Assembly: GCA_020630715.1 (NCBI GenBank)
Contig: JAHDIQ010000002.1
Coordinates: forward strand, 1 to 64,000
Source of the DNA: Nonlabens sp.
Lineage (GTDB): Bacteria; Bacteroidota; Bacteroidia; Flavobacteriales; Flavobacteriaceae
Direction: 5' to 3'
DNA length: 64,000 nucleotides
Part shown: positions 3,186 to 8,824 of the stretch, piece by piece
Layout: the number at the start of each line of letters is the position of its first letter
How positions within the stretch are numbered: the first letter of the stretch is position 1
Position numbers and translations under genes: made by a program
Notes under the pieces: model-generated
What the model saw: only the letters and a program-made list of their open reading frames with translations
Database searches by the model: none
What the model was told of the DNA's origin: nothing

Positions 3186-3261
3186 CAATGTGTAATGGTT
3201 ACGCTTTATTACAATAACGTCTCGACGATCGCTCGATGTAGCTTAAGTAAAGATGTTTGTT

Positions 3262-3442
3262 GTATTTCGCTTTCGCGAAAGCGTATTAAAAGGGAATCTA
3301 GTGAAAATCTAGAGCTGTTCCCGCAACTGTGAAGTTTGGGTGATTATGAAATCACTCCTCATTTTGAGAACTACATTTCTAATGCCACTGAGTTATTTTG
3401 GGAAGGCGATGTAGTTGAACCAGTCAGGAGACCTGCCAGATC
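3262..3442 (+). promoter_or_regulatory. cobalamin (B12) riboswitch
   Basis: Conserved parts appear in order: TTAAAAGGGAATCTAGTGAAA, GCTGTTCCCGCAACTGTGA, GCCACTG, GGGAAGGC and the B12 box CAGTCAGGAGACCTGCC. It lies just upstream of the TonB receptor gene, the usual target of this element. The 5' part contains a copy of the genome's palindrome (3268-3283), placed where an accessory stem before the GGGAA core would be. Cobalamin binding should lower expression of the receptor. Confidence 0.95.
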
Positions 3443-3498
3443 ACAATTAATTATAAACCTGCGGGAAACGGGTAAGTAATGAAATAGGAGTGATCTGG
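3436..3498 (+). promoter_or_regulatory. candidate riboswitch expression platform (9-bp inverted repeat)
   Basis: CCAGATCAC (3436-3444), at the 3' edge of the B12 box, is perfectly complementary to GTGATCTGG (3490-3498), 45 nt apart. Pairing would use bases next to the box that closes the riboswitch, so it could be the switching helix. No U-tract follows, which argues against a simple terminator. Confidence 0.4.
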
Positions 3499-6362: not shown

Positions 6363-6446
6363 ATGCGTTTTAATTACATATCACAAGCGTTTTAGAAATC
6401 CGTAACCCAATTTAGGGCAACATTGTTGCGCTTTAAAATTAGTGTT

Positions 6447-7010
6447 ATGGACACCTTAAATAAATACCTTTTAAAGGCGATAGAAAGTTATGATTACAAT
6501 CTAGAGGAAACTGTAGAGTCATTAAACTATGCACTTTCTTATGAACCAGAGAATGCACAAGCATTACGGTTAATGGGTAAAGTACATTTAGAATATTTAC
6601 ATGAATACGATCTAGCCGCACAATACTATGGTGAGGCGATAGCATCAAATATGGATCTGGTACAAGCTTACACAGAATATGCACGAGTACTGATTTTAAA
6701 AGAGGATTATGTACACGCTATGCGCGTTATATCTTATGCAATTACAATTAAAGGTACAGATAAAGCGGTATTGTACATGTTATATGCTGGTGTGTTAGAA
6801 GAGCTAGGAAATTATAAACTAGCCCTTAAGGTTCTAGATCAAGCTTATTTACGTACTTATAATAATGAGTTTACCTATCAACTAGATTTCACGACTAGCC
6901 GTATAAAGGAAAAGATCAAACGAATACAACCTAAAAAGCAAACAGATTCTAAGGCTAAAAAGACTAAAAATAAAACGAAGAAGTCGAGAAAAAAGTCAAA
7001 GAAAAAGTAG
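6447..7010 (+). CDS. TPR-repeat protein with lysine-rich tail
   Basis: A 187-residue soluble protein of tetratricopeptide-type helix pairs: LSYEPENAQALRLMGKVHLE and the following QYYGEAIASNMDLVQAYTEY and VLYMLYAGVLEELGNYKLAL are typical TPR spacing with the G/A-x-Y/F pattern. The last 30 residues are almost only K, T, S and R, a basic tail that could bind nucleic acid or acidic partners. I chose the ATG at 6447 (MDTLNKYLL) rather than a TTG at 6423. It may be transcribed only by read-through of the attenuator ending at 6362. TPR proteins are scaffolds, so no specific job can be given. Confidence 0.75.
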   Translation: MDTLNKYLLKAIESYDYNLEETVESLNYALSYEPENAQALRLMGKVHLEYLHEYDLAAQYYGEAIASNMDLVQAYTEYARVLILKEDYVHAMRVISYAITIKGTDKAVLYMLYAGVLEELGNYKLALKVLDQAYLRTYNNEFTYQLDFTTSRIKEKIKRIQPKKQTDSKAKKTKNKTKKSRKKSKKK

Positions 7011-7227
7011 ATGAATTTAAGGAATCGAGAATCAGGAATCATGAGATTCATCTTTATGCGTTACTGTGTTCTGAATGATAAAAGAATCTAGGTTGAATTT
7101 AAAAAGCATTTTTCAGTTTTAGAATAGGTGTTTCTGTATAGCACCGTAGTAGGAATAGCTGCATACGTGTATGGATGTTTCCTATCCTAACTGATCAATC
7201 GGTTTCTGGCTACCGTAAAGCTGGAAC

Positions 7228-7303
7228 AGGTTATGTGTTATCGGTTCGAATCCGATGCCTAAGTAAAATTAGAACTAGCTCAATAGGCAGAGCAATAACT
7301 ACC
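7228..7303 (+). ncRNA. circularly permuted tRNA-like element A (Y-RNA-like)
   Basis: A perfect T-arm, ATCGG-TTCGAAT-CCGAT (7240-7256), comes first. Then a short acceptor-like hairpin follows (CTAA 7259-7262 with TTAG 7269-7272), then TA and a D-arm, GCTC (7278-7281) with GAGC (7290-7293), its loop holding the GG that docks in T-loops. GTTAT (7230-7234) pairs with ATAAC (7295-7299) to close the element. The order T-arm, acceptor, D-arm is permuted relative to tRNA, and there is no anticodon arm. This resembles the tRNA-like domain of bacterial Y RNAs. A degenerate tRNA pseudogene is the alternative. Confidence 0.55.
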
Positions 7304-7391
7304 AAAGAGGCGCAGGTTCGAATCCTGCTAGACTTTCACGAGTCTATAGCTCAGTTGGCTAGAGCACTACACTCAGGATGTAGGATGGTAG
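7299..7391 (+). ncRNA. circularly permuted tRNA-like element B (Y-RNA-like)
   Basis: Every tRNA helix is present but in permuted order. T-arm GCAGG-TTCGAAT-CCTGC (7312-7328); acceptor strand TAGACTT (7329-7335) joined by a TCAC loop to its partner GAGTCTA (7340-7346, one G-T pair); TA; D-arm GCTC (7349-7352) with GAGC (7362-7365) and GG in the loop; then anticodon arm CTACA-CTCAGGA-TGTAG (7367-7383). The ends fall in the variable loop and are held by CTACCA (7299-7304) with TGGTAG (7386-7391). A capped acceptor cannot be charged, so this should be a tRNA mimic. The Y-RNA assignment is an inference from architecture and from the slipin neighbour. Confidence 0.7.
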
Positions 7392-7395
7392 AAGC

Positions 7396-7454
7396 ACACC
7401 ACTTCTTTAAAAAGGTGTACCGCAACTTTAATTGCGAATGGTCCAGATCAGACC
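7396..7454 (+). other. three consecutive small hairpins in non-coding block
   Basis: ACACC/GGTGT (7396-7400 with 7414-7418), CGCAA/TTGCG (7421-7425 with 7432-7436) and GGTC/GACC (7440-7443 with 7451-7454) follow element B directly. They may be the 3' part of the same RNA or spacers. None has a T-tract, so no terminator is evident here. Confidence 0.4.
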
Positions 7455-7532
7455 TCAAATGATCCCAAAAGTAAGAACCAGTGCAGCCAGACTCTGATCA
7501 TAGGATGATGATGAGTAAGAGGAATGTTGCCT

Positions 7533-7723: not shown

Positions 7724-8824
7724 ATGAGAATGAAAAGAATTACCACAGGTAAAAGAGGTATCGTTCTTAAAAACGGAACGGTAACTAGAGTATTAGGTGC
7801 AGGATGGCACTTTATTTTATGGAATGAAAGATGCGTGATCGTATCGATGACACAGCCATTAACACTAGGCATAGATTTAGAAATCTTGCGCAGTAATACG
7901 GCATTGATGGAACAACTTACTATGGTAGAAGTGATGGCAAGTGAGGTATGTATCGTAACGGTTAATGGGCACTTAGATAGAGTGTTACAAGAAGGAACAT
8001 ACCTATTCTGGAAAGGATTTAGGGATTACGCTTTCGCGAAAGCGGACACCACATCCGTCTACATAGACAACGACGTACCAGTTGCTTTTTACAAGACCTT
8101 GAGAGATCTAGGGCTGATGATGGCAGTAACGGTAAACAGTGGCGAAAACGCCGTATTGATGCTAGAAGGAAAAGAAAGTGGCGTGCTAGAAGCTGGTGAT
8201 TACTGGTTCTGGAATAACGACACTAGAGTAGAGGTTGCGCGCACAGATATGAGAAAGCGTATGCTAGAAATAAGCGGTCAGGAGATTCTTACTAGCGATA
8301 AAGTAACGGTGCGTGTCACACTTACCGCTGTCTTTAAGGTAGTGAATATTGTAACTGCTATTCTAGAGAATAAAGCCTTTGAAACACAGTTGTACATCGC
8401 ATTGCAACACGCATTGCGTGTCCTAGTAGGAGCATTTACTATGGATGAATTGCTAGAGAATAAAGCAGCGTTAGGCGACTCACTACGTGAGACTGTGTCT
8501 GGTACTGCAACAGATTTAGGAATTGAATTGTACACCGTAGGTGTTAAGGATGTTATTTTAACTGGTGAAATGCGCGCTATGATGAATAAAGTGATTCTTG
8601 CACAAAAAGAAGCTCAAGCTAGCGTGATTACACGTAGAGAAGAAGCGGCTCAAACCAGATTAATGCTCAATGCTGCAAAGTTAGTGGATGAAAACGAAAC
8701 ACTCTTTAAGTTAAAAGAGATGGAATTCATCGAGCGTATTGCAGATCGAGTAGGAGAAATCTCCCTATCCAGCAATGGTAATATGGTCAGACAGTTGAAA
8801 GAGATTTTTACAGCTGCAAAATGA
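7724..8824 (+). CDS. slipin-family SPFH/band-7 domain protein
   Basis: A 366-residue SPFH protein. The N-terminal third repeats a short beta motif (RVLGAGWHFILWNE, RVLQEGTYLFWKGF, GVLEAGDYWFWNND), then the band-7 core follows (LTSDKVTVRVTLTAVFKV to GTATDLGIELYTVGVKDVIL) and an Ala/Glu-rich helix typical of SPFH oligomerisation (LAQKEAQASVITRREEAAQ). There is no strong N-terminal membrane helix, so it may be cytosolic or peripheral. It sits right after the permuted tRNA-like block. From memory, slipins of this kind occur in bacterial RNA-repair or Ro60/RtcB loci, which fits; no such partner gene is in this window. A palindrome copy encodes AFAKA near residue 103. Confidence 0.85.
   Translation: MRMKRITTGKRGIVLKNGTVTRVLGAGWHFILWNERCVIVSMTQPLTLGIDLEILRSNTALMEQLTMVEVMASEVCIVTVNGHLDRVLQEGTYLFWKGFRDYAFAKADTTSVYIDNDVPVAFYKTLRDLGLMMAVTVNSGENAVLMLEGKESGVLEAGDYWFWNNDTRVEVARTDMRKRMLEISGQEILTSDKVTVRVTLTAVFKVVNIVTAILENKAFETQLYIALQHALRVLVGAFTMDELLENKAALGDSLRETVSGTATDLGIELYTVGVKDVILTGEMRAMMNKVILAQKEAQASVITRREEAAQTRLMLNAAKLVDENETLFKLKEMEFIERIADRVGEISLSSNGNMVRQLKEIFTAAK

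Follow-up and report, generated by a model that had tools for sequence, protein, structure and literature searches.

A predicted RNA with two tandem circularly permuted tRNA-like units upstream of an SPFH/Band-7 gene in Nonlabens and its relatives

To our knowledge, tRNA folds in permuted order are known in few natural RNAs. In 2016 Burroughs and Aravind (NAR 44:8525) reportedly paired Band-7 modules in RNA repair with a novel tRNA-like molecule. The RNA presented here resembles that molecule, as reported, in being noncoding, placed beside a Band-7 gene and found in RNA-repair neighbourhoods, and because a tRNA-like Band-7 partner RNA had reportedly already been proposed, the class is not new. 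Apart from that proposal, the literature searched, in the text available, yielded no description of an SPFH-associated tRNA-like RNA. Both the window and its relatives carry a tRNA-like RNA adjoining an SPFH/Band-7 gene, which we file as a variant of this kind, one with permuted units in tandem, a pair of pseudoknots, anticodon loops that vary and a locus lacking any known ligase. Two described regulatory systems are also pertinent, each as given in the available part of its source: RtcR binds tRNA 5' fragments with a terminal cyclic phosphate (PMC7790460), and a single repressor, relieved by translational stress, controls a tRNA operon together with rtcB and a slipin gene in Anabaena (PMC10272220).

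Architecture of the RNA and pairing in permuted order

The window, a 64,000-nt stretch of a Nonlabens sp. contig, encodes a predicted conserved structured RNA of at least about 7128-7418. Its 5' domain contains a pseudoknot; next come two circularly permuted tRNA-like units in tandem, each with its acceptor end closed off by a short loop, and a 3' pseudoknot follows (Table 1). The original prediction had described a complete permuted tRNA fold at 7299-7391, and each of its helices and loops, together with the single G-T pair, is present at its position. Completeness stood only in part: unit B is real, but it belongs to a longer RNA with a second permuted unit upstream.

Table 1. Coordinates of the RNA, its parts and the adjoining genes in the window
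Feature	Coordinates	Strand	Basis or remark
TPR-repeat gene	6423..7010	+	directly 5' of the RNA; start codon (TTG as listed) uncertain; Pfam TPR, blastp to relatives
RNA 5' domain	7128..7225	+	28-locus alignment
5' domain, first hairpin	7128-7132/7140-7144	+	
5' domain, helix	7147-7155/7179-7189	+	bulge 7185-7186
5' domain, further hairpin	7160-7163/7168-7171	+	
5' domain, H-type pseudoknot	S1 7200-7203/7212-7215, S2 7205-7211/7219-7225	+	
Permuted tRNA-like unit A	7230..7299 (about)	+	sequence, 35-locus pair counts; opens inside the anticodon loop in most loci
Unit A anticodon-stem strands	7230-7234/7295-7299	+	variable loop 7235-7239
Unit A T-arm	7240-7256	+	
Unit A sealed acceptor hairpin	7259-7262/7269-7272	+	4 bp only in the window; register differs from the common register of other loci
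Unit A D-arm	7278-7281/7290-7293	+	
Permuted tRNA-like unit B	7312..7383	+	helix check, folding, pair counts; opens in the variable loop
Unit B terminal stem, 5' strand	7299..7304	+	partner 7386-7391; C7299 common to unit A anticodon stem
Unit B T-arm	7312-7316/7324-7328 (arm 7312-7328)	+	loop TTCGAAT
Unit B sealed acceptor hairpin	7329-7335/7340-7346	+	loop TCAC, one G-T
Unit B D-arm	7349-7352/7362-7365 (arm 7349-7365)	+	
Unit B anticodon arm, complete	7367-7371/7379-7383	+	loop CTCAGGA; triplet CAG 7374-7376
Unit B terminal stem, 3' strand	7386..7391	+	perfect pairing in the window
3' H-type pseudoknot	7390..7418	+	S1 7390-7394/7402-7406, S2 7396-7400/7414-7418; A-rich loop TTAAAAA; ACC comes next
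SPFH/Band-7 (stomatin-like) gene	7724..8824	+	366 aa; 3' of the RNA

The minimum-energy fold of 7299-7391 (-29.9 kcal/mol) includes every named helix and closes the D- and anticodon loops further than these helices do. Its z score of -2.05, with 4 of 200 shuffles equally good, is modest if taken alone, and both units together (7226-7391) gave z -1.35; comparison among relatives provides much stronger evidence. A permuted-unit pattern, drawn up post hoc from unit B itself, matched both strands of the window only at 7312, and matched once in 150 random 64-kb first-order Markov sequences scanned on one strand each. A 95-aa open frame at 7175-7462 crosses both units and is probably an accident of tRNA-like sequence.

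Loci were gathered through SPFH homologues from 6 named contigs, 29 of 299 genomes of the family and 20 of 395 genomes of the phylum, 2 of the latter being already counted among the 29. The two-unit alignment comprises 35 of the 53 loci. It omits the near-duplicates L002, L025 and L027 (L001 and L002 are near-identical, and L005 and L025 are apparently one contig), loci in which the spacing or the number of units differs (L012-L014, L019, L023, L029, L031, L032, L036, L037, L047), those with a single T-arm (L049, L051, L053), and L035, where the SPFH gene is broken. Standard pairs fill 91.0% of its 1398 cells, as against 35.0-44.7% with the 3' strands slid by 1-3 columns and 65.3% with letters shuffled. 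Compensatory changes in relatives had been suggested as a check on the fold, and 36 of the 40 pairs have indeed changed on both sides, in 390 cells versus 119.5 when shuffled. By helix, pairing is 76.0, 100, 96.6 and 98.6% in unit A (helices 1-4) and 100, 83.7, 81.9 and 93.7% in unit B (helices 5-8); the weakest is the split anticodon stem of unit A, where the alignment is one base off in some rows.

Since one unit follows the other, the D-arm of A together with B's T-arm mimics a piece of ordinary tRNA, and the locus could be read as ordinary tRNAs with these arms in normal order, or as decaying tandem tRNA genes. It is the pairing of the acceptor that tells permuted from ordinary order. The permuted acceptor of unit A is paired in 169 of 175 cells (96.6%; fully in 32 of 35 rows) and the first five pairs of that of unit B in 153 of 175 (87.4%; fully in 24 of 35 rows), whereas an acceptor in ordinary order, which would need a 5' strand ahead of the D-arm and a 3' strand beyond the following T-arm, shows pairing in 72 of 175 (41.1%; fully in one row of 35). 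Acceptor loops measure 3-9 nt in 61 of 70 units. In favour of ordinary tRNAs, the Rfam tRNA model exceeds its 29-bit cut-off over the units, in ordinary order, in 7 of 8 relatives (the exception is L017), ARAGORN calls such tRNAs over the units in L005/L025, L012, L014, L029, L031 and L047, and tRNA arrays lie upstream in many. In the window, however, that model reaches 27.1 and 25.9 bits, ARAGORN calls no tRNA, and the conserved 5' domain also speaks against this reading. A tRNA or pseudogene in the usual 5'-to-3' arrangement, which the original prediction had named as the outcome that would undo it, was accordingly rejected for the window; pair counts and the acceptor test largely refute this explanation, to which we give hardly any credence. 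No known Rfam class reached its gathering score across the RNA region.

One element of the predicted fold did not carry over to relatives. The 6-bp stem said to hold the ends together pairs perfectly in the window, but a stem of weight at least 5 occurs in 5 of 35 loci; with swapped partners the mean was 3.03 loci, and 5 was reached in 50 of 300 swaps. Conservation of the terminal stem across relatives is thus not supported.

Conservation of the RNA extends over several families within the phylum. Two or more T-arm motifs lie close together 5' of the SPFH start in 33 of the first 35 loci, where 5 of 5 stem pairs were demanded, and in 15 of the next 18, where 4 of 5 were; the exceptions among the first 35 are L023, with an interrupted unit A T-arm, and L035. 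T-arms number from one to four per locus. Four motifs stand 5' of SPFH in L036 and L037, so the number of units varies.

Both flanking domains were compared across relatives. The 5'-domain alignment (28 of 53 loci, a pseudoknot strand being shifted in some rows) is paired in 88.9% of cells versus 34.8-51.3% when slid. Its first hairpin is nearly invariant and its second and third helices covary, while the two pseudoknot stems are paired at 71.4% and 80.1%, with the inner S1 pair open in 17 of 28. For the 3' pseudoknot the best score averaged 18.1 over 49 loci versus 12.4 over 245 base shuffles, and at least 18 was reached in 32 of 49 versus 40 of 245, on a score devised after the motif was known and with simple base shuffling as the control; some loci score best with a different structure.

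Model searches and the SPFH gene

For a held-out covariance model, R2, four loci were withheld: the window, L008 of the same genus, L034 and L038 (the alignment omits L007, L008, L034 and L038; structure by RNAalifold). This model recovered the window with 110.0 bits (E 5.9e-31), while L008 scored 114.1, L038 107.9 and L034 75.7 bits; other matches in the same six sources scored at most 64.8 bits, the top one lying over tRNA genes. The permuted fold with T-, D- and anticodon arms and sealed acceptor is thus borne out by covariation over 35 loci, the held-out model and the acceptor test alike, and the percentage of standard pairs, the held-out score and the permuted acceptors agree with the original view of a selected mimic and not a chance or decaying tRNA.

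The first model, R1, matches all 299 family genomes at E<=0.001, including ordinary tandem tRNAs at up to 95 bits, so only its high scores are informative. At 101 bits or more it matched 25 of the 299, many of these loci having been in its training set; all 25 are among the 29 genomes with SPFH, all matches lie 5' of SPFH, and the best match away from SPFH scored 95.1 bits. Three further SPFH-bearing genomes (G033, G096, G156) have adjacent hits of 72-89 bits, overlapping the range seen elsewhere, and G200, with a broken SPFH gene, has no adjacent hit listed. Outside the training set, L027, L031, L037, L036, L023, L019, L013 and L032 scored 112-134 bits, the near-duplicates L002 and L025 109 and 130, and L012, L029, L047 and L014 72-98; the one-T-arm loci L051, L053 and L049 scored 50.4, 30.3 and 16.5 bits, and L035 had no model match. 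The window's genome holds one copy (119.1 bits); a second was rejected, the next-best match scoring only 45.5 bits. Phage origin was likewise rejected: phages gave no match, and of 11 pattern stretches in viral contigs none was confirmed.

Gene order suggests that the RNA may be a partner of the SPFH protein. This protein has three N-terminal beta repeats, an SPFH domain that places it in the SPFH/Band-7 superfamily, and a long C-terminal helix. A full-length structure search had MVP chains among its matches, and the N-terminal repeats alone had no MVP chain among the matches listed; with a stomatin-like SPFH part, a vault relationship is not favoured.

Several side observations concern individual loci. 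L035 and L042 have an internal stop in the SPFH frame; L035 (a fragment) lacks an upstream T-arm motif and L042 retains the RNA. In one relative, L020, a Flavo-1 RNA (RF01705) lies at 1284-1359 between the RNA and SPFH. The Photobacterium slipin leader (L058, 4653-4794) has two tRNA-like units, apparently non-permuted, one of them called tRNA-Met.

RNA-repair neighbourhood and possible role

RtcB was found in 22 of 28 genomes with SPFH versus 5 of 28 without (Fisher p 1.1e-5, uncorrected for kinship), the former being 28 of the 29 (G200 was omitted for its broken SPFH) and the latter a non-random 28 of 270, drawn from the head of the listing after four genomes of lower completeness had been passed over. 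In 17 of the 22, no more than 15 kb separate RtcB from SPFH, and 6 of the 28 genomes with SPFH are without it. Gene content was read in five regions of relatives. L090 has two RtcB, two RlaP, a DUF434/DUF5616 protein, an RF-1-domain (PrfH-like) protein, TPR and an RNase_T exonuclease; L093 has RtcB, RF-1 and TPR, L091 and L094 RtcB and TPR, and L092, of the window's genus, TPR and no RtcB. The TPR gene of the window is 34-52% identical to the TPR genes in the same position in all five (blastp), and such a gene is a described accessory of PrfH-RtcB systems in the available text of PMC6514570. ARAGORN tRNAs number 7 in L090, 10 in L091, 0 in L092, 15 in L093 and 1 in L094. The 7-15 tRNA genes that precede the RNA in L090, L091 and L093 include none for Ala, Gly, Val, Thr, Ile or Met, some of which do occur in the arrays of L004 and L029. 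The choice of tRNAs in the arrays may mirror the nucleases faced.

The window's genome gave no match to the RtcB, RlaP or PF09414 models and, at 99.97% completeness, none to TROVE/Ro60 (PF05731), for which the control was positive in 1 of 14 genomes; for the RNA ligase family PF09511 the control matched nowhere, so absence carries no meaning. With no such matches, a cleaved bait would not be repairable here by RtcB, RlaP, TROVE or PF09414 proteins, and this genome appears to retain a minimal TPR-RNA-SPFH form. The earlier argument that an RNA without Ro60 would be a new partner RNA keeps its premise, there being no TROVE match, but its constant neighbour is SPFH/Band-7, for which a tRNA-like partner RNA had reportedly been proposed before. 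Elsewhere in the window, at 3251-3454, lies a cobalamin riboswitch (84 bits, Rfam), the only match there at gathering score; it is 5' of a large outer-membrane-receptor-like ORF and opposite ABC-transporter-like ORFs, apparently an ordinary B12 uptake locus.

Related gene arrangements extend beyond this phylum. In both Citrobacter and E. coli, SPFH homologues of ~32% identity are neighbours of RlaP, and in Citrobacter RtcR flanks them opposite RlaP. In the slipin leader of Citrobacter a T-arm followed by a sealed hairpin lies behind a sigma-54-like motif; as this leader scores only 14.7 bits with the model, its kinship is a lead only. Among 5426 complete genomes of E. coli, 1624 have DNA like this leader, and at the sole place inspected it precedes a slipin gene. 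An unannotated E. coli leader before slipin-RlaP (L059, 4001-4242) resembles it. This E. coli leader may be distantly related to the window's RNA. A 2026 paper places PaFlo8, an SPFH gene, in a Pseudomonas rtc locus, and its main text does not use the word tRNA.

The anticodon-like loop of unit B is 7 nt long in 31 of 35 loci, and of these 31 loops 29 have U33 and 29 a purine at 37, with 15 different triplets among them. Ten loci share the identical stem CTACA/TGTAG and have six triplets; constant stems with varied triplets would fit loops that face changing nucleases. We propose, at a probability of roughly 0.45, that the RNA is a held tRNA mimic scaffolded by SPFH and acting as a decoy and/or sensor for tRNA-cleaving nucleases. 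The SPFH protein, as an oligomeric scaffold, would hold the RNA as its partner. The sealed acceptor ends would bar maturation by RNase P and RNase Z, aminoacylation and use by the ribosome, and the RNA would still present its T-, D- and anticodon arms, so that tRNA-cleaving nucleases could mistake it for tRNA. As a decoy it would spare real tRNAs, and/or as a sensor its cleavage would alter the scaffold complex; where RtcB is present, the cleaved RNA could be re-ligated. RtcR binding, the co-regulation in Anabaena and the loop pattern together favour a response to tRNA damage. The RNA offers a direct way of testing what SPFH proteins do in RNA repair, and it hints at a means by which cells might bait tRNA-cleaving weapons. 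Counting against bait are that unit A mostly has no anticodon loop of its own, the 4-bp acceptor in the window, and a published test in which, according to the text available, RtcB2-PrfH gave no protection from tRNA-targeting toxins. A more specific form, an anticodon display device, is doubtful: the SPFH scaffold would bear an RNA with several unchargeable mimics and loops that differ by lineage, baiting the anticodon nucleases of phages or rivals, and a cut bait would protect real tRNAs or set off a scaffold-based alarm. If true, this would be an RNA-guarded immune sensor, functional also in minimal forms, like the window's, that have no known ligase.

We prefer the decoy or sensor, with a tether of the Y-RNA kind as its main rival. 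Here the mimic would dock an exonuclease or other RNA enzyme on the SPFH scaffold, much as Rsr and PNPase are linked through YrlA, and the tRNA look would serve recognition by modification or decay enzymes, not baiting. The order of the module is that of YrlA in Rfam, the available text of PMC8394870 has YrlA tethering Rsr and binding PNPase through its tRNA-like domain, and the RNase_T exonuclease stands in L090, the sole island whose neighbours were fully scanned. Yet the YrlA literature, in the text available, names D, T and acceptor arms only, whereas here U33 is kept in almost all seven-nucleotide loops while triplets vary, there are two units per RNA, and TROVE gave no match; we hold the tether to be unlikely. 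A cis-regulatory leader of the SPFH mRNA, sensing the state of tRNA or tRNA-binding proteins and setting SPFH expression, would account for an RNA that lies 5' of SPFH on the same strand, with two or more close T-arms in the 33 of 35 and 15 of 18 loci above and pseudoknots on both sides of the units. The gap between the SPFH start and the nearest T-arm is variable, however (316 to 737 nt), as is the T-arm count, and the 3' pseudoknot is not close to the start codon, which leaves such a leader quite improbable.

Much the same order of halves would be seen in a permuted tRNA gene, as in some algae and an archaeon, with a transcript that is circularised and trimmed to a working tRNA; the 3' half does precede the 5' half, and in permuted pre-tRNAs described so far the intervening sequence measures 1-74 nt, in the available text. 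Such genes are, on the same footing, known in six algae and one archaeon and require a splicing endonuclease and a ligase, but neither RtcB nor PF09414 was matched in the window's genome, triplets vary on a fixed stem, and ARAGORN called no tRNA in the window. This origin has only a very slight chance.

Comparison with known systems

Bacterial Y RNAs had been named as the closest known class, and a search with their covariance models gave a partial answer. With relaxed thresholds, Rfam YrlA (RF02553) scores 36 bits over 7311-7365 (E 4.2e-6), covering positions 30-81 of the 114 in the model and staying below its gathering score of 69. What the two share is a permuted succession of T-arm, sealed acceptor hairpin and D-arm, and YrlA too is linked to RtcB operons. 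In contrast, the neighbour here is SPFH and not Ro60/Rsr, there are two units, a full anticodon arm and pseudoknots, and no conserved basal stem was found. The comparison with Y RNAs therefore holds for the tRNA-mimic module only.

With the permuted tRNA genes of algae and Thermofilum the RNA shares a 3' half encoded ahead of the 5' half; those genes yield working tRNAs via splicing enzymes, whereas in the present case a short loop seals the acceptor, and the window's genome gave neither an RtcB nor a PF09414 ligase match. The eukaryotic vault, with its MVP cage and vault RNA, offers an SPFH-type domain preceded by beta repeats, but the repeats of the window's protein had by themselves no MVP match among the matches listed. 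The long Anabaena trn operon under TrcR (PMC10272220) combines a gene termed slipin, rtcB, a tRNA array and one repressor, and the available text names no tRNA-like RNA. The RNA of the window is related to the tRNA-mimic RNAs of bacterial RNA-repair clusters.
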